Assembly (NCBI RefSeq): GCF_004087835.1
Contig: NZ_CP035119.1
Span: 1,178,001 to 1,242,000 of the forward strand
Length of the DNA: 64,000 nt
Source: Halorussus pelagicus
Lineage (GTDB): Archaea; Halobacteriota; Halobacteria; Halobacteriales; Haladaptataceae
Direction: 5' to 3'
Numbering within the stretch: the stretch's first letter is position 1; each line of letters opens with the position of its first letter. Positions 18,204 to 30,017 of this stretch are shown one piece after another. The notes beneath the pieces are model-generated. The model ran no database searches, was not told the origin of the DNA, and was given only the letters and a program-made list of their open reading frames with translations. Both the position numbers and the translations under genes were made by a program.

Positions 18204-18461
18204 ATGGCGAATCTCGAACTGTACGAACTCGACGGCTGTCCGTACTGCGCGAAAGTGGTAGACAAACTCAACGAACTCGGTCTCGACTACGAGTCGCACA
18301 AGGTCGCCGGTCCCAAGTCCGAGCGCGACGAAGTGGAGGCAGTCAGCGGACAGCGCGGGGTCCCCGTGCTGGTGGACAACGAGAACGGCGTCGAAGGGAT
18401 GCCCGAGAGCGACGACATCGTGGAGTACCTCGACGAGGAGTACGGTAGCGGCGCGGCGTAA
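18204..18461 (+). CDS. Glutaredoxin
   Basis: 85 residues from ATG 18204. The thioredoxin-fold active site is CPYC (residues 12-15) in LYELDGCPYCAKV; the cis-Pro motif is GVPVLVD and the C-terminal GMPESDDIVEYLDEEY is typical of glutathione-S-transferase-N/glutaredoxin domains. Haloarchaea use gamma-glutamylcysteine rather than glutathione, so it probably works with that thiol or with thioredoxin reductase. A nine-residue upstream extension (start 18177) is not conserved-looking. Confidence 0.92.
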   Translation: MANLELYELDGCPYCAKVVDKLNELGLDYESHKVAGPKSERDEVEAVSGQRGVPVLVDNENGVEGMPESDDIVEYLDEEYGSGAA

Positions 18462-18487
18462 TAACCGCTTACCACATTAATCATTTT

Positions 18488-19996
18488 TTAATTAGATTTA
18501 TCTTTATGTTCGCGGAGTAAGTCGACCAGTTCTTCAATTTTGACTTTCTTCTCCGATCCAAGATTTGAATCTTTTATCCAAGAGTCAATTTCTTCAAATT
18601 CCCATGCTGTAGAAAATTCTTTCTCACAAAAGTCCCGATACTCATCTTCTTCCTCGCCGGTTATATCTTCCCCAGTTGCTATTCTCGATATAAGTCGAAG
18701 GAGTGTTCCTGATGCAATGTGTTCTATTGATTCACTCTCCTCTTTTATTTTGGCTGCATCCTGCTCTGCTTTCTTAAACTTATTCGCTTGTATTCTTGCC
18801 TCCGCGCGGTTATGGAGGACGAATGTTGGGTCAGCCCCGAACTCTATTGCCCTGCTGTAGTCCTTAATTGCCCCCTCATAGTTACCTAGTTTATGTTTTG
18901 CAAGTCCACGCTGGCCATAAGCGTCGCCAAATTCGGGATCTTCTTCAAGAACTTCGTTACAAAGATTAATTGCTTCTTTACATTCTCCCTTCTTAATAAG
19001 GGTTTCACACTGCCAGAGCCTTGATATTTTACTTATATACTCTTCTTCTTCATCGTCAGTTGCTGCTTCTTTACTTTCCTCCAAAGTTCCTTTTAGCATA
19101 TCGGCTCTTTGTTCAGCTCTTTCAATAATTTCATCTGGCTTAGGAGGTTCGAGATCATTAATTCGGCTCCCGAATTTTCTCATCAAGCTTCCAAATCCAT
19201 CAATTTCCACCAAGTATGTGTTTGGTTGTTCTAGCAGTTTTCCTGCCTTCTTAGAAACAGCGTTAGAATCCAGGACACACCAGTAAATGCCATACTCTGA
19301 AAGTTCAGCTTCAATAAGAGGATCCATAATTGAGTCATCTTCCCCACTATAGCCAACAACTACTAACCCATATTCCTCTACTGTTTGTTGAAGCGCATCT
19401 TTCATCGCTTCGTCTAATGCATTTGATCCTGTCTCGTTAGTAGTATTTCGGAGATTGTCATAAAGGTAATCCCCGTGGAGTTTCACAATTGCCGATTTAC
19501 TATGTGTGAGTCTAAACTCGGGCGCAATAGCCCGATGATCTATCACTTGCGGTTTATCTTCCAAGTATAAATAAAACGCTTTGAACAGCAAATCATCGAA
19601 ATTCGGTGTGAGAGTATGGGGAACAAAATTCTCAGCCATCAAAGAAGCAAGAATGACGTGTTCGAAATTTGGATCCGCATCCTTTACAAGTTTTTGAATC
19701 CTTTCTCTTCGTTCTCCGCGAGTTGGATGACGTTGTTCAAACCAAAACCCATATCTACTTTTGTCATAATCTATCTCTTTCTGTTTATTACCAACCCAGT
19801 TATCAAATTCAACCTTAGGATTTTCATGATCATAGCATTCTTTCTGCCAGATTTCGATTAGTTCGCCGCCAGTAGGAATTTCAGCTGGACGAGGTCGTGA
19901 CGTCCCAGCACCTATAAGAAATGCGTAGTTTTTGCGTTCTTTCACAGCTCTGATTAACTGTGTTACAGTTGCTGTATTAATCTCCCCATCAGTCAT
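18488..19996 (-). CDS. SIR2-like NADase domain fused to TPR region; candidate antiviral defence protein
   Basis: 502 residues. The SIR2-like (SIR2_2 type) domain spans about 10-275: GAGTS (29-33), TPNFDDLL (130-137), KLHGD (172-176) and GYSGEDDSIMD (215-225), i.e. the NAD-binding GAGxS, TxNxD and KLHG motifs. Residues ~276-325 are a charged linker; ~335-420 hold TPR-like helices (GDAYGQRGLAKHKLGNYEGAIKDYSRAI). In DSR, Thoeris, Avs5 and SIR2-HerA systems such domains deplete NAD+ on phage sensing. The gene is AT-rich, lysine/asparagine-rich and flanked by core genes, so it was probably acquired. AAAGGAG lies six bases before the ATG, an unusual clear Shine-Dalgarno sequence, with a TATA-like region near 20035. 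No partner gene is visible, so it would act alone. Confidence 0.85.
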   Translation of the reverse strand: MTDGEINTATVTQLIRAVKERKNYAFLIGAGTSRPRPAEIPTGGELIEIWQKECYDHENPKVEFDNWVGNKQKEIDYDKSRYGFWFEQRHPTRGERRERIQKLVKDADPNFEHVILASLMAENFVPHTLTPNFDDLLFKAFYLYLEDKPQVIDHRAIAPEFRLTHSKSAIVKLHGDYLYDNLRNTTNETGSNALDEAMKDALQQTVEEYGLVVVGYSGEDDSIMDPLIEAELSEYGIYWCVLDSNAVSKKAGKLLEQPNTYLVEIDGFGSLMRKFGSRINDLEPPKPDEIIERAEQRADMLKGTLEESKEAATDDEEEEYISKISRLWQCETLIKKGECKEAINLCNEVLEEDPEFGDAYGQRGLAKHKLGNYEGAIKDYSRAIEFGADPTFVLHNRAEARIQANKFKKAEQDAAKIKEESESIEHIASGTLLRLISRIATGEDITGEEEDEYRDFCEKEFSTAWEFEEIDSWIKDSNLGSEKKVKIEELVDLLREHKDKSN

Positions 19997-20079
19997 TGTT
20001 AACTCCTTTATAGATGCTGAGCGTAAAAATCTTATTATGCAGTTGGTAGTCGAGAGTATGAGATCTTCAAAAGCAACTG

Positions 20080-21039
20080 TTACGCCGGGTTCTTGCCGCG
20101 TTCCCGAATCAACTCGCGCAGTTCGTCGGGGTCGTCGATGTCCTCTAACTCCTCGCGCTCGACCAAGCCCGTGCCATCGACGCTCTCGCGTTTGGCCTCG
20201 TCCACGAAGTAGACCGAGCGCGTCTGGGCGACCTCACCGATGGAGGACATGATGCGGGCGCGCTTCTCGGCGGCCTTGGTGAACGCAGAGTGACCCGTCA
20301 GGACGTTCTCCTCGCTATCGTTGTCCTCGCTGACGGTCTTGAAGGGCGCGCGGACTGTGGGGTGGACTTCGAAGCCCGCGCGGGTCAGCACCGTGACGAT
20401 GCGCTCGTCGTCGTCCTCGGGTTCGGGGTCGTCTGGCGTGGGGTCGCCCTCGCGGACCTCGTCGGCCCCGTCGAGTACGTCCACGGGGCTGGTCAGGTCG
20501 CCCTCGAACATGTCTTCGAGTTCGAGCGCGACCTCCACGCTGGCGTTCATGCCGTCCTCGTACTTCGAGACGGTTCGCCGCGAGACGCCCAGTTCCTTGG
20601 CGAGGCGGCCGAGGCTCCAGCCGCGTTCCTCGCGCTCGTCGCGCAGTACGTCGCCGTCGATGGTGACGTAGAGACCGCCGGGCGCGGCGTAAATCAGCGG
20701 CGACATTCCTTCCACGAACAGTTCCATCGCCGTGTCAGGACTCAATACCGGGACGCCGTGTCGGAAGTAGACGACGCCCGGTTCCAGTTCCTCGTCGCGG
20801 GTCCGAAGGCCGACGACAACCGGCGTGGCGTTGAGGTATTCGCCGAGTCGTCGCATCTCCAGACCGGTCGCTCCGTCGAACGCGTCCACGTTCGCCAGAA
20901 CCTTCAACAAGAGCAGGTCGCGTCCGCGCCGCGCGGCCACGTCGAAGCTCTTGGGTCGGATTGCGCACCGGTCACTTACGGTGAATCCCGCGTCCTCCAG
21001 CATCGCGGTCACGTTCCCGACCAGTGCAGACCGGGACAT
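20080..21039 (-). CDS. Archaeal HTH-type transcriptional regulator (N-terminal nuclease-like fold plus XRE HTH)
   Basis: 319 residues. The N-terminal ~125 residues ([19 protein letters not shown]) resemble a restriction-endonuclease-like fold; an XRE/Cro-type HTH follows at about 130-190 ([28 protein letters not shown]), then an acidic linker and a C-terminal domain ([23 protein letters not shown]-like). This matches the conserved archaeal 'putative HTH-type transcriptional regulatory protein' family found in nearly all Euryarchaeota. Targets unknown. Divergent from tiaS. Confidence 0.88.
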
Positions 21040-25178: not shown

Positions 25179-25270
25179 TACCCATAACGGACGCCTACAC
25201 GCCCTTTAGCGGTTCGGTCTTGGCGAAGTGAGAGTCATATAAGCATCGAAAAATAGAGGTACTAACTAAT

Positions 25271-26053
25271 TTATTCTACTGCTGTATGTGTGGCATCCAC
25301 ATATGAACTCCACTTTTGAGCACTACCAGTAATACCGACATCGAATGAGTTAGCACCCGGAAGACCCCAGCTAACGCTCCAATTAGACGGTGCGCAGAAA
25401 GGATCCCAAGTATGGATGAACTGACCGTAAATGGTTGTATCCGAACCCTGTTCATCGTCTCGAGCATCTACTTCGCATTCGATAAAGCCTGTTTTCGGTG
25501 TGTAAGAGCCGACTTTGTTTCCTGTCTTAATTTTGGCGTAGTAGCCATGTACGGATGTCTTCTTTTCAGCGATAAGACCGTCTGATCCAGTTTGGGTATC
25601 GGGAATGTTTCGATAGATATCCTCCGAGAACGAGATTGCGGCCCCGTCGTAAGGACCGTGACAATCAACGCCACGTGCGGATGCAAGGTCCCACTGGAAG
25701 ACAAAGTGTTGATGACCGTCGCCGTTATCATTACCGACAGAATACCCACCGATACTAATACTGGAGTCAGGGTCATCATCTGGGTCAGCAAACCTTTTTT
25801 CAGTCGAGACATCACCATTCGACTTCTTATTGTGCCTCTTTACTTTCTGCGAGAACGGTTTTGTATTATAAGTGTAATTGATTCCGTGCTGATCACAGAG
25901 CTTATTTGCCTGCTCGGTCTTCCCGTTTCGCAAAAGCTGTTTTAAAGCAGCGTATATACCTTTCTCGGGCGAGGCCGAAACGGTTGACGTGCTAAGAGCA
26001 CTGGTTGTAAGTCCTGCACTACCAATTGATTTTATGAATCTTCTACGATTCAT
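25271..26053 (-). CDS. Tat-exported protein of unknown function
   Basis: 260 residues. The N-terminus MNRRRFIKSIGSAGLTTSAL is a twin-arginine signal peptide with cleavage likely after VSA near residue 27. The mature part is glycine/aspartate/serine-rich, with two cysteine-containing stretches (ARGVDCHGPYDGAAISF and FIHTWDPFCAPSNWSVSWG) that suggest a secreted beta-rich fold. Base composition is much lower in GC than the core. It is divergent from a Tat lipoprotein gene with a shared 110-base promoter region. I do not recognise the family. Confidence 0.75.
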   Translation of the reverse strand: MNRRRFIKSIGSAGLTTSALSTSTVSASPEKGIYAALKQLLRNGKTEQANKLCDQHGINYTYNTKPFSQKVKRHNKKSNGDVSTEKRFADPDDDPDSSISIGGYSVGNDNGDGHQHFVFQWDLASARGVDCHGPYDGAAISFSEDIYRNIPDTQTGSDGLIAEKKTSVHGYYAKIKTGNKVGSYTPKTGFIECEVDARDDEQGSDTTIYGQFIHTWDPFCAPSNWSVSWGLPGANSFDVGITGSAQKWSSYVDATHTAVE

Positions 26054-26133
26054 ATTCCTATCTTTTTCTATTCTATATTATATCTTTCTAAATGAATTAT
26101 CTATAATGTTTTTTGACTATGGAGCTGATAATC

Positions 26134-26145
26134 TTTTTATATATA
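26134..26145 (+). promoter_or_regulatory. TATA box that decides the lipoprotein start
   Basis: TTTTTATATATA lies 19-30 bases before ATG 26164, which favours this ATG over an in-frame ATG at 26116 that would place the TATA box inside the gene. Confidence 0.55.
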
Positions 26146-26163
26146 CCTCCCGTAGGAATTTCC

Positions 26164-26601
26164 ATGCGTCGAAGAACAGTTGCCCGTCTATCCGGAGTTG
26201 GAATTATAACATGCCTCAGTGGTTGCAGTTCATTATTCAAAGACGATAGAGTAGAACCTAAAGTAAATTCTACATTTACTTGGACTAGTACACAATGTGG
26301 TGAAGGTGAGCCGAATACACAGGCAGATTGGGATGAATCCGGCGTGGAGATTACCGGTACTGCCGTACTCCCAAAGGGATGCTATAAAACAATCATCGAA
26401 TCGCTCGGACCTAGTGACGAATCTACCGCAACTATAGAAATAAAGTTCGAACAGACCCCCGAGGGAGAACACTGCGTCAACTGTGACTCGATAGTCACTT
26501 ATGAATTAATAGTTAATTCTATTAACTCGTCTATTTCATCTGTAGATATTATTCATAATACACCTCTCAAAGAGGAAGTAGTTGCAACCCATTCGAGATA
26601 A
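26164..26601 (+). CDS. Tat lipoprotein of a cysteine-bearing haloarchaeal family
   Basis: 145 residues. MRRRTVARLSGVGII is a twin-arginine signal and LSGC (18-21) a lipobox, so the protein should be lipid-anchored outside the membrane. The mature domain (VEITGTAVLPKGCYKTIIE, then EHCVNCDSIVTYELIV) matches a common haloarchaeal pattern of small lipoproteins with a GC-x-A and C-x2-C-bearing beta-sandwich; function unknown. AT-rich like its divergent neighbour. Confidence 0.75.
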   Translation: MRRRTVARLSGVGIITCLSGCSSLFKDDRVEPKVNSTFTWTSTQCGEGEPNTQADWDESGVEITGTAVLPKGCYKTIIESLGPSDESTATIEIKFEQTPEGEHCVNCDSIVTYELIVNSINSSISSVDIIHNTPLKEEVVATHSR

Positions 26602-26945
26602 CGGTAGCTCTTAACTCGATAGTATCGAGAGCCCCAGATTTCCGGATACTAGTCAGTATAGGCGCTGTTATCCGAAAGTGCGGAGTGTAACGGCTCTCTT
26701 CAGCCGTTCCTATAGGATTATATCCACCCACATCAATTTATTCATCTATAATCTATATTGTAATTTTAGATTGTACCGATTCGAAGGTCATGCTGACCGC
26801 CTTCATTATCAGCGAAAAAGGACGAGCGTTCGCAGACAACCGACTACGAAGCTATACTCAAAAACAAGGCAGACGCCGAGACGACGAACAAAGAAAAAGC
26901 GACGAGGAGCGACGGAATGGTGTTCGGTGCGAGCGGTCGGGCGTC
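26602..26945. other. 344-base intergenic stretch at the edge of an AT-rich patch
   Basis: AT-rich up to about 26880, then GC-rich. No ORF with protein-like features was found: the frame starting MLTAFIISEKG at 26790 overlaps the next gene antisense and loses hydrophobic pattern. It probably marks a recombination junction. Confidence 0.5.
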
Positions 26946-27632
26946 CTACAGGCCGAACCAGACCGTCGAGCAGTCGTCGTCCGGGAAGTGCCAGCGTTGC
27001 TCCGGGCGGCCGTTTTTCTCGCGGAGTTCGATTCGCGCGTCGAACAGCGGGCCGAATCGCTGGACTGGCTTCGAGTCGTCGGCGACCGGCAGGTGGTAGT
27101 GGGCCATCCCGCCGACGCCGCGGACGTGGTCGCCGAGCGCGCTGAGGAATCGGTCTATCGCCGTCTCGTCGTGGCGGTTCACGAGATACGAGAGCGTGTA
27201 TAGCGAGAGGCGGAACTCGGCGGGTTCGAGACCCGACTGGGCTATCTTGGCGGTCGTCATCGCGTTGCAGAGCGCGGTCTGAAAGCCGTCGAGGTCGCAC
27301 GCGGACTGGGACGCGTCGGTAGCGACCGACTCGGAAGCGACCGAGGACGCCGCGGTCCGCGTGTCACAGTCGTATCCGACGAAGCGCACGCGCTCGTCAG
27401 TCACGCCGACATCGTCGGGGAGCAGGGAGACCGCATCCTCTCTGTCGCGGTCGGTCAGCGCGAGGAGGCGACTGCGCGAGACCTCGGGCGCACCGAGGAG
27501 TTTCCGCGTCGCGCGCCGAGACACCTCTTCGCGGACGTTTCCGGTCACGAGCAGGTTACAGCCCCGCTGTTTCAACCGTCGGAGTTTCAAACGCACCTCG
27601 CCTATCGGAACACCGGTCGTGTCGTCGCTCAT
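26946..27632 (-). CDS. Degenerate RecA/KaiC-like protein (DUF7504-type)
   Basis: 228 residues. The beginning (IGEVRLKLRRLKQRGCNLLVTGNV) resembles the first strand of KaiC/RecA-fold proteins, but where a Walker A loop (GxxGxGKT) should be there is NVREEVSRRATRKLLG, so ATP binding is doubtful. The middle (GFQTALCNAMTTAKIAQSGLEPAEFRLSLYTL, positions ~115-150) and GGMAHYHLPVADDS fit what I recall as haloarchaeal DUF7504. A TATA-like TTTAAATA lies about 25 bases upstream. It sits next to a small membrane protein and a CHAT protease. Family name from memory. Confidence 0.7.
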   Translation of the reverse strand: MSDDTTGVPIGEVRLKLRRLKQRGCNLLVTGNVREEVSRRATRKLLGAPEVSRSRLLALTDRDREDAVSLLPDDVGVTDERVRFVGYDCDTRTAASSVASESVATDASQSACDLDGFQTALCNAMTTAKIAQSGLEPAEFRLSLYTLSYLVNRHDETAIDRFLSALGDHVRGVGGMAHYHLPVADDSKPVQRFGPLFDARIELREKNGRPEQRWHFPDDDCSTVWFGL

Positions 27633-27825
27633 ATAGAACTATAAACTACTACATATTATTTAAAATTTGTTACCCAGAGTGTAGACATAATATCAATAGT
27701 GGGTGAGTTCAGGCGATGGCCGCGACGAGGAGTTACGTGGTGGGTAAAATAGTCAGTAACTTGTCCATCATTTCGGACGTGAATTTTAAGGAAAAGATTT
27801 TGCCGGTGGTTGTGTGAGTACGAAC

Positions 27826-27960
27826 ATGGTCAGAGGCAAAATTGGTACGTGGTTAGAACGACATCCGTGGGCGATTGGGGTTATTTTCTCTTTCGGAGTT
27901 TACCTGTCTGAGATTGTTGAACCATTGGGTTGTGCCAAGTGCGGCGTGAGGGGACCCTAA
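27826..27960 (+). CDS. 44-residue single-pass membrane protein (DUF7503-like)
   Basis: ATG 27826 to TAA 27958-27960. It begins MVRGKIGTWLERHPWAIGVIF: a short amphipathic start, the WLERHP motif and one membrane helix (about 15-33), then a C-terminal CxxC (C36/C39) and terminal RGP. The WLE-x-HP...GP outline resembles the short haloarchaeal membrane proteins I recall as DUF7503, often near DUF7504. A TTTTAAG element lies ~37 bases upstream. Its last four bases overlap the stop region of the convergent CHAT gene. Confidence 0.65.
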   Translation: MVRGKIGTWLERHPWAIGVIFSFGVYLSEIVEPLGCAKCGVRGP

Positions 27961-30017
27961 ATATCATCTAGCTTGATTTCATCAGTCCAACGAATTTTAC
28001 CGTCAATCCAGACTGGGTCCGACGATTCATTAAAAAACTCTCTCAGAGACTCATCATCAATTTTTGTCTGAAAAACTGTGGAGTTTAAGAAACAGTATTT
28101 ATGGTTGCCCATTTTTAGTGTCGCAAGTGAGCCTACTGGATAGTTTAGATTAGGATACGGACCCATTTCGACTGAGATTTTTTCGCCGTTTCTATTCGGT
28201 TTTATAACCGATGGACTTCCACATTTCGGTTTAACAAGCTCAACACTTCCATCCCCAATAATCACGTACTGACGCTCAAGCGTGTTCACGTTCGTCACCA
28301 CCGACAGCGCGCTCTGCATCGAGAACCCGTGGTTCAGCAACCGCGCCAACTCCTTGCCCACGTCGGTGGCCGGTTCGTTGCCGACCTTCGTCAGCGTCAC
28401 GACGCCGACCTGACTCCCCTTCTCGACCAGCATCTCGCCCTGCTCGTAGGACCGACAGCCATTGAGGATGAATCCGCGGACGCCCGAGCGCGACAGTGTT
28501 CGGGCGTCGAGCATGCCGTCGGAACACTGGATGCCCTCGTCGGTAACGTGGCCGATGTAGTGGAGGAAATCCGTCGGGGATTCGAGCAAATCGCGGAGTT
28601 CGCCGGTCGTCAGGTCGTTGTGCAGCGACACGTCGAAGTCGTAGAGGTCCCGCGTCCCGTAGATGTCGCCCACCACGTCCTCCTCGCGCATGCGCTCGTC
28701 GTTGCAGACCACGTCCACCGAGATGTGGTGTTTCGGCGTCACGTCGAGGCGACGTTTCAGCGCCTCGGGCGTCGCCTTGCTCGCGCCGATTGGCATCTCC
28801 TCGCCGACCCAGACGTGTTCGATGGTATCAACCGGGTCCGGCTGAATCACGTCGCTGACGGGGGCGTCCTCGCCGTCGAACGAGCGATAGAACGCCTCCA
28901 ACTCGCTCGGTTCAGGCTTGACTGTCGAGGGGTCCGGTTCGCCCGGACACCGGACGAAGGCGAGTTCGTCCGCCGCGAACGGAAGCACCGCGACGTTCTC
29001 GTGGGTCGGCGATATGTCCATCGTGACCTTCCACTGGGGCAGGTGCGGTTCGACCACCTCGAAGGGAATTTCGAGATACCGGCGGAGCTGTTCGGCCAAC
29101 GGCTCGTCATACAGCGACTCGAAATCGAGGTCCACGTCGGGTTCGACCAGTTCGCGCTCGCGGAGGTCCACCTCGTAGTAGCCTTCGGTCCGGGTCACGC
29201 AGTCGAGGAAGAACACCTGCTGGAGAACGCGCCGGACCGCCGACTCGAACCCGTCGGGCGCATCGAGCGAGTAGGACAACTCGTCGGTCAGCAGGCGCGG
29301 TGTCTCGCCCGGCACCACGCTCGCGCCGAGGTAGAACGCCAGCGGCGCAGCGGCGTAAATCGCCTCTCGCCGCTCGGGAACCTCGATTTTGACCCCGGTG
29401 TCCGGTCTCTCGATGGTCCCCTCGACAGTGAACTCCTCGCCGGGTTCGAGTAGCGGCGGATGGCCCCGCAGCGTGGGGAACGACCGCTCGCAGGTCGTCG
29501 TCTTGAGCGCCGACCCCAACAGCGACACGGCGTCCATCAGCGCTCCGGTGTCGTCGGGCACCGTAATCGTCCCCGCGGGACTCTCGTGGAGCGACCGCGC
29601 ACCAACCTCGACGCGGGTCTCTCCGCCGAACGAAATCTCGATGGACTCGGTACTCCCCGAGACGGAGACCTCGCTCTCGACGGCCAGATACACCTTCATC
29701 TGCGTGTTGGCGAGTTCGAGGTTGTACGCGTCCACCGGGAGGTCGAGTTCGGACCCACCGCTCGACTGTCCGACCATCTCCCCGTCGGCGTCGCGGACGT
29801 ACACGTCGAGTCCCTTCGTCGTCCGGAGCGAGCGCGTCGAGAGAGAAACGACCGTATCGACCGGGAAATAGAACGACTCCGCGTCCGTCTCCCGTGGCGA
29901 GACGGCGGCCGGAGCGTGCAGGTCGAACTGCGTGCGCTCGATGGGGTCGGTGATTCGGACCCCGTCGGGTTCGACGAGAGCGGTGAACTCGGGATTCATT
30001 GACGAACGAGTAGTCAC
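27957..30017 (-). CDS. CHAT-domain (caspase-like) protease with large N-terminal region
   Basis: 686 residues. The CHAT domain lies at about 430-590 with the presumed catalytic His490 in FLHYIGHVTDEG and Cys521 in FILNGCRSYEQG, followed by VGVVTLTKVGNEPATDVG. Residues 1-420 form a beta-rich, acidic region with no family I can name. CHAT proteases act as effectors or processors in bacterial immunity (for example Craspase and gasdermin systems) and in other signalling. The last ~100 codons (27957-28265) are AT-rich and lysine/asparagine-rich while the rest is GC-rich and acidic, suggesting that the C-terminus was exchanged. A second in-frame ATG at codon 7 is an alternative start. Confidence 0.85.
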   Translation of the reverse strand: MTTRSSMNPEFTALVEPDGVRITDPIERTQFDLHAPAAVSPRETDAESFYFPVDTVVSLSTRSLRTTKGLDVYVRDADGEMVGQSSGGSELDLPVDAYNLELANTQMKVYLAVESEVSVSGSTESIEISFGGETRVEVGARSLHESPAGTITVPDDTGALMDAVSLLGSALKTTTCERSFPTLRGHPPLLEPGEEFTVEGTIERPDTGVKIEVPERREAIYAAAPLAFYLGASVVPGETPRLLTDELSYSLDAPDGFESAVRRVLQQVFFLDCVTRTEGYYEVDLRERELVEPDVDLDFESLYDEPLAEQLRRYLEIPFEVVEPHLPQWKVTMDISPTHENVAVLPFAADELAFVRCPGEPDPSTVKPEPSELEAFYRSFDGEDAPVSDVIQPDPVDTIEHVWVGEEMPIGASKATPEALKRRLDVTPKHHISVDVVCNDERMREEDVVGDIYGTRDLYDFDVSLHNDLTTGELRDLLESPTDFLHYIGHVTDEGIQCSDGMLDARTLSRSGVRGFILNGCRSYEQGEMLVEKGSQVGVVTLTKVGNEPATDVGKELARLLNHGFSMQSALSVVTNVNTLERQYVIIGDGSVELVKPKCGSPSVIKPNRNGEKISVEMGPYPNLNYPVGSLATLKMGNHKYCFLNSTVFQTKIDDESLREFFNESSDPVWIDGKIRWTDEIKLDDI

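Follow-up and report, generated by a model that had tools for sequence, protein, structure and literature searches.

The closest described counterparts of the gene reported here are antiviral SIR2 systems. DSR2 is a single protein in which a SIR2 domain is joined to a MID region and a C-terminal sensor (PMC10981675), and within this fold family the binding of a viral protein to the C-terminal sensor leads to NAD+ hydrolysis in both DSR2 (PMC10981675) and Avs5 (PMC12931631). In SPARSA, mutants demonstrated that N142 and H186 are needed for NAD+ hydrolysis (PMC10781750), and the counterpart residues of DSR2, in which mutants have also been described, are N133 and H171 (PMC10981675). SIR2-TPR architectures have already been mentioned among SIR2_2 proteins (PMC12700824). 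Moreover, the sirtuin of Halfgib1, an inducible provirus (PMC7911831), was listed in a 2022 survey as the only one from an archaeal virus (PMC9503650), and the site between the Q and A genes of P2-like phages is a demonstrated hotspot of antiphage systems where SIR2 genes are already on record (PMC9122126).

A lone SIR2-TPR gene

The window is the whole stretch of Halorussus pelagicus DNA that was analysed, with a length of 64,000 nucleotides. Its initial annotation had proposed a candidate single-gene antiviral system, whose features and surroundings are given below in window coordinates.

18488..19996, minus strand: SIR2-TPR gene of 502 residues, the whole system (ORF, Pfam SIR2_2 and TPR, AF2 model, full-length homologues)
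19154..19969, minus strand: predicted SIR2_2 NADase domain, residues 10-281 (Pfam, alignment with the SPARSA SIR2, Foldseek)
19601..19603, minus strand: codon of N132, the predicted catalytic Asn, corresponding to SPARSA N142 and DSR2 N133 (invariant in the alignment)
19475..19477, minus strand: codon of H174, the predicted catalytic His, corresponding to SPARSA H186 and DSR2 H171 (alignment)
18737..19054, minus strand: TPR helical repeat region, residues 315-420, with a copy number that differs among homologues (Pfam TPR, AF2 helices, repeat counts)
18491..18754, minus strand: C-terminal cap module, residues ~415-502, with no Pfam model (HMM from SIR2 proteins only, BLASTP)
20001..20008, minus strand: Shine-Dalgarno-like AAGGAGTT ahead of the ATG (sequence)
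18462..20079, no strand: inserted cassette of 1618 bp between convergent core genes (synteny with sister genomes)
20080..21039, minus strand: XRE-type regulator, a core neighbour outside the system (28/28 family genomes, Pfam HTH_3)
18204..18461, plus strand: glutaredoxin/GST_N-like core neighbour, outside the system (Pfam, synteny)

The ORF was found at exactly the annotated position and strand, intact and with an ATG start, and all the NAD-site motifs named for it are present: GAGTS at residues 29-33, TPNFDD at 130-135, KLHGD at 172-176, and GYSGED at 215-220. The claimed fusion of a SIR2-like domain to a TPR region is also borne out by Pfam, which matches SIR2_2 (PF13289) at residues 128-230 (E 3.3e-10, 40.7 bits, above the curated cut-off of 24.5) and TPR_1 at residues 358-385 (E 4.7e-10). 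The protein is thus laid out as a SIR2_2 domain, a short TPR solenoid with one strong TPR by sequence, and an unnamed C-terminal cap; in the AF2 model (mean pLDDT 89.4), the SIR2 domain is followed by eleven helices from residue 287 onward. The gene is a single copy in the 3.49-Mb assembly and is AT-rich, as had been noted (GC 0.41, GC3 0.33 versus 0.63 in the flanks), a property common to all haloarchaeal copies examined. The strong Shine-Dalgarno sequence pointed out earlier is present directly upstream of the ATG; however, it is not kept in the same-site copy of another genome of the genus (G013), being therefore uninformative.

Regarding the active site, N132 is kept in 114/114 aligned SIR2 domains and H174 in 107 of the 114, the exceptions having Asn, with 12/12 retaining His in the archaeal clade. 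The conserved pocket residues are N132, D134, H174, G175, D176, G215, and D220. Because N132 is invariant and the match to the SIR2 part of short-pAgo systems reaches E 1.8e-43, the SIR2 identity is not due to chance. With the catalytic Asn/His pair and the pocket motifs retained in the window protein, the NAD pocket is intact and the active site looks functional. The predicted structure agrees with this assignment: all of the 50 PDB matches listed by Foldseek belong to antiphage SIR2 systems (SPARSA, DSR2, Avs5, ThsA, and KomBC, with KomC as its SIR2 NADase), the first of them being the SPARSA SIR2 domain (E 2.9e-12). A BFVD fold search gave no close viral match.

Comparison with SPARSA and other SIR2 systems

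The closest solved SIR2 domain is that of SPARSA (e.g., from Geobacter sulfurreducens), by sequence (E 1.3e-14) as well as by fold, and the same Asn/His pair is found in both; therefore, the absence of APAZ and of a pAgo had to be demonstrated. This proximity, together with the SIR2-APAZ label given to relatives by PADLOC profiles and by a Vibrio phage record, would favor an orphan or degenerate SPARSA, that is, a SIR2-APAZ protein that lost its short Argonaute or uses one in trans. However, the PADLOC SIR2-APAZ profiles match the window protein only at residues 21-283 (profile positions 5-286 of 558). All matches of this kind end at residue ~283-300; the APAZ half is unmatched, and the TPR region and the cap stand in its place. 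Moreover, no short pAgo (MID-PIWI) is adjacent to the gene, and the Piwi family (PF02171) has no match in the whole 3.49-Mb genome. As a positive control, the neighbor of locus L196 is a genuine pAgo (E 6.6e-176); this locus, the single pAgo-linked one found, pairs with SPARSA in the SIR2 tree, outside the query's side. SPARSA membership is ruled out by the lack of both APAZ domain and pAgo, and an orphan derived from such a system is very unlikely.

The label itself looks over-applied, because a prophage relative annotated as 'pAgo__SIR2APAZ' (L038, Vibrio phage 10N.286.55.B4_PE002, corticovirus-like) has no Argonaute gene annotated in its 8.2-kb stretch; in this case, the label is likely an over-annotation. 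Judged from the profile matches, current tools appear to misfile the SIR2-TPR family as Argonaute-linked SIR2-APAZ.

Like DSR1 and DSR2, the window protein combines in one chain an N-terminal SIR2 NADase of the same fold family and a C-terminal sensor, both predicted here. Unlike DSR2, it is half as long and has TPRs instead of the MID and CTD; no Dsr family model matches it at E<=1, and its Foldseek alignment with full DSR2 gives a TMt of about 0.2 and an rmsd >20. In Avs5 (SIR2-STAND-TPR), the SIR2 effector is at one end and the TPR-type repeats are at the other (PMC12931631), as in the window protein, which lacks the STAND NTPase between them, no NTPase domain being detected by Pfam. The Thoeris ThsA features are also absent, with no SLOG in the Pfam scan and no TIR neighbor, and no HerA ATPase of the SIR2-HerA or Nezha type is adjacent, the neighbors being the glutaredoxin and XRE genes. 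The claimed lack of STAND, SLOG, HerA, or Argonaute partners holds, but a partnerless SIR2 protein is not new in principle because DSR2 is a single protein with its own sensor (PMC10981675) and the Halfgib1 sirtuin had already been listed (PMC9503650).

PDC-S65, a single-gene candidate of PADLOC for which no mention was found in the literature, comprises haloarchaeal SIR2 proteins of ~570 residues (L014-L028). It resembles the window gene in being a lone haloarchaeal SIR2 gene with a matching SIR2 part (E 6e-32). Nonetheless, the match covers only 18-299 of 592, whereas L014 matches 16-583 (E 1.5e-188), and both groups form separate clades. Membership in PDC-S65 is ruled out on these two grounds. 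Several PDC-S65 genes (e.g., L014 and L024) read NGD in place of HGD; a similar NG variant is reported to be active in Avs5 (PMC12931631).

In the SIR2-domain tree, the archaeal SIR2-TPR proteins are monophyletic (SH-aLRT 97, 12 rows), including the copies of a Thermoplasmata MAG and of the Halfgib1 virus, and this clade is surrounded by bacterial and phage relatives that lack a partner. With the bacterial relatives, the SIR2 domain alone is held in common, at about 30-35% identity, their C-termini being mostly unrelated in sequence; the AF2 model of one E. coli-type relative shows a SIR2 domain and an all-helical solenoid. Because relatives also come from phages and from many phyla of bacteria, the family is not a haloarchaeal speciality.

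A solo insertion between core genes

The core genes described on both sides were confirmed: the XRE-type regulator occurs in all 28 genomes of the family, in most of them with the glutaredoxin gene next to it. In three sister genomes with XRE proteins 95-96% identical (G017, G014, and G024), the site is empty and these two genes are about 60-70 bp apart. In the window, the gap of 1618 bp corresponds to the SIR2-TPR gene and its own upstream region. The gene is a solo insertion, placed between housekeeping genes and outside any defense island, which speaks against a defense role. The homologue of G013 occupies the same site, is 67% identical, and is longer by about four TPRs; the two copies may go back to a single old insertion that was later lost elsewhere, or to separate insertions.

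Three further ideas about this site were discarded. Integration via attachment repeats was rejected, as the cassette is not bounded by direct repeats of at least 8 bp, and so was an operon with the upstream XRE gene, which is in 28/28 family genomes when the SIR2 gene is in 3. Also, a role of the site as a defense hotspot is not supported, the inserts of G018, G019, G021, and G027 looking ordinary from their ORF sequence and being mostly not AT-rich, unlike the present one.

The gene is present in 3/28 genomes of the family and, as a full-length protein, in about 7/391 of the class, where the search returned 178 'positive' genomes that are mostly TPR-only or PDC-S65 matches. Truncated or broken copies were found in G026 (with a TAG), QS_1_68_20, and G170. 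The distribution of the gene is sporadic. TPR proteins are common and the flanking genes are core, which could suit a housekeeping regulator inserted here by chance, for example, a protein deacylase with a TPR scaffold. However, a gene that is sporadic, AT-rich, carried by viruses, and decayed in several strains, with a domain of the SIR2_2 class and not that of a canonical deacylase Sir2, makes this explanation extremely improbable.

Elsewhere in the window, a DUF7504 gene and an adjacent gene of 686 residues (26946-30017) have homologues (29% and 39%) in G026 at L043:4676-7419, near its truncated SIR2 gene. A second AT-rich island, at 25200-26640, contains two divergent ORFs, one of 260 residues that has a likely Tat signal but matches nothing in Pfam, the other of 162 residues with a likely lipoprotein signal.

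Relatives in viruses, prophages, and defense neighborhoods

The Halfgib1 protein HfxHg1_085, annotated as a TPR protein, is a full-length SIR2-TPR-cap homologue, with 40% identity across 82% of the window protein. Unlike the window gene, it rides on an inducible pleolipovirus, where it adjoins a wHTH gene near the integrase. Also, a related lone SIR2 gene is found beside the integrase or CI in two Vibrio prophages, one corticovirus-like and the other P2-like. A search of IMG/VR viral contigs with the single window sequence gave no match; with an alignment as query, it gave 44 loci, 14 of which have the SIR2 gene between the P2-like portal gene Q and gpA. A viral collection returns viral loci by necessity, and the inspection of E. 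coli copies is a less biased check, although small: four are in the P2-like Q-A site (L202, L203, L222, and L223) and two in the P-nin region of lambdoid prophages (L224 and L225). The E. coli Q-A genes are likewise lone and encode a SIR2 domain with a helical solenoid, but their protein has 864 residues and a C-terminus unrelated in sequence to that of the window protein.

Among the cellular loci, a Natronococcus relative is near a TmtA defense gene and the Thermoplasmata MAG relative is beside a serine recombinase. Restriction-modification, SoFic, AbiD, and integrase genes are among the immediate neighbors in 79 genome loci; these counts, made among the 25 families listed per search and without a random background, are indications only. 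The association of homologues with defense genes, expected from the initial annotation, is seen in accessory loci of viruses and prophages, including the published P2-like hotspot, again with no random background. Positions beside an integrase or repressor, in the Q-A site, and in the P-nin region are those in which temperate viruses keep genes against superinfection. Taken together, the locations of the relatives point to antiviral defense.

Two other explanations bear on these loci. A Thoeris-like effector, whose TPR/cap region would bind a nucleotide or other messenger from an enzyme encoded elsewhere in the genome, has its precedent in the ThsA-type SIR2 NADases, which are activated by a messenger. 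However, no conserved neighbor able to make a signal is found in about 150 loci, TPRs typically bind peptides or proteins, and transfer by viruses as a single gene implies self-sufficiency, so activation by such a signal is unlikely. On the other hand, an addiction-type or toxin-like NADase or ADP-ribosyltransferase that stabilizes the mobile element instead of defending the cell would fit a sporadic gene carried by temperate viruses, and macro-domain-linked SirTM sirtuins do perform ADP-ribosylation (PMC9503650). Here, no antitoxin or macro-domain gene is adjacent in the loci compared, the gene is kept as a lone chromosomal gene, and the nearest fold matches are defense NADases and not SirTM, which leaves this role improbable. 

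One member of the clade (L048:8026-10497, minus strand, G196) has the TPR/cap region replaced by an unrelated acidic C-terminus and is followed by a LeoA-like GTPase gene (E 1.6e-10), possibly as a two-gene variant.

The TPR arm and the C-terminal cap

The number of TPRs among homologues goes from 0 detectable to about 13 units, many of them nearly identical. For example, a SIR2-TPR protein of Halobacterium salinarum DSM 3754 (L128, 9980-12760) has ten near-identical units of 34 residues, which points to a recent repeat expansion. Among archaeal homologues, the mean identity is 37% for the cap and 51% for the SIR2 domain. Faster evolution was discarded as proof of an arms race: between G000 and G013, the SIR2 domain is 77% identical and the neighboring genes 71-94%. 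As the SIR2 divergence is within the range of the neighboring genes, only the relative difference between cap and SIR2 domain was retained, and the faster divergence of the cap may mean merely weaker constraint.

For the cap, an HMM was built from SIR2 proteins only, leaving the TPRs out. It matches the window protein with E 2.5e-34, this protein being part of the training set, and some members of the archaeal clade (L127 and L048) lack the cap. Further matches of the HMM are a stand-alone TPR-cap ORF in G103 (L211:5288-7116, plus strand, E 3e-21), two SIR2-TPR proteins of bacteria (E 7e-9 and 2e-5), the remains of a decayed copy in G170, and a P-loop NTPase-TPR-cap protein of the haloarchaeon G273 (E 5.7e-20), encoded as follows.

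L210:5338-7974, plus strand: NTPase-TPR-cap protein of 878 residues from G273 (P-loop APSGAGKS, Walker-B-like motif, TPRs, cap)

By BLASTP, the window cap and the G273 protein are 31% identical over 102 residues (E 4e-16). Its STAND match is weak (E 0.026), and 'STAND-like' is therefore a tentative term for this NTPase. A variable number of TPRs and a cap shared with an NTPase-TPR protein are as expected of a swappable sensor, and recognition is a plausible role for the C-terminal half.

The G273 gene is AT-rich relative to its flanks, has a phage-type integrase nearby, and encodes a protein whose first ~190 residues match no Pfam model. The G103 ORF directly follows a gene of the SUKH-1 (SMI1/KNR4) family, whose members are known as immunity proteins.

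Proposed function

Considering the fold, the pocket, the empty site, and the loci of the relatives, this locus is best interpreted as encoding an antiviral SIR2 NADase that acts without a partner. By analogy with DSR2, whose logic it would share, the window gene probably encodes a self-contained abortive-infection NADase, to which we give a probability of roughly 0.7. The initial proposal of such a system stands in this respect, but not as a trait peculiar to haloarchaea. The role of the TPR/cap region as sensor is plausible and is graded lower than the antiviral NADase itself.

In the proposed mechanism, the N-terminal SIR2_2 domain would be an NAD+ hydrolase held inactive, and the TPR solenoid together with the cap would recognize either a viral protein or some infection-induced change. 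Recognition would bring several SIR2 domains together, with activation based on oligomerization, and the loss of NAD+ would then halt virus production. The gene may spread on its own, both as cargo carried by temperate viruses and as an isolated cassette that settles between genes where insertions are tolerated. A broader and more speculative scenario, doubtful at present, is that these proteins are a cross-domain family of immune receptors, each encoded by one gene, whose SIR2 NADase carries a swappable TPR-cap arm that is also traded with NTPase (STAND-like) proteins, and that archaeal and bacterial temperate viruses move them between cells and use them against competing viruses.

Three things appear to be new: a cross-domain SIR2-TPR family that is carried by viruses in archaea, an unnamed cap that recurs on an NTPase protein, and evidence for the misassignment of the family to Argonaute-linked systems by current tools. 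If the proposed function is true, the window gene would be the archaeal equivalent of DSR2 and Avs5 in minimal form, with effector and sensor in one gene of 502 residues, and such a one-gene system would be easy to move and to test in Haloferax. Moreover, the common cap would help to find immune receptors of archaea that escape current tools or receive the wrong label of Argonaute-linked SIR2-APAZ, and the variable TPR arrays would make the sensed trigger directly testable through arm swaps.
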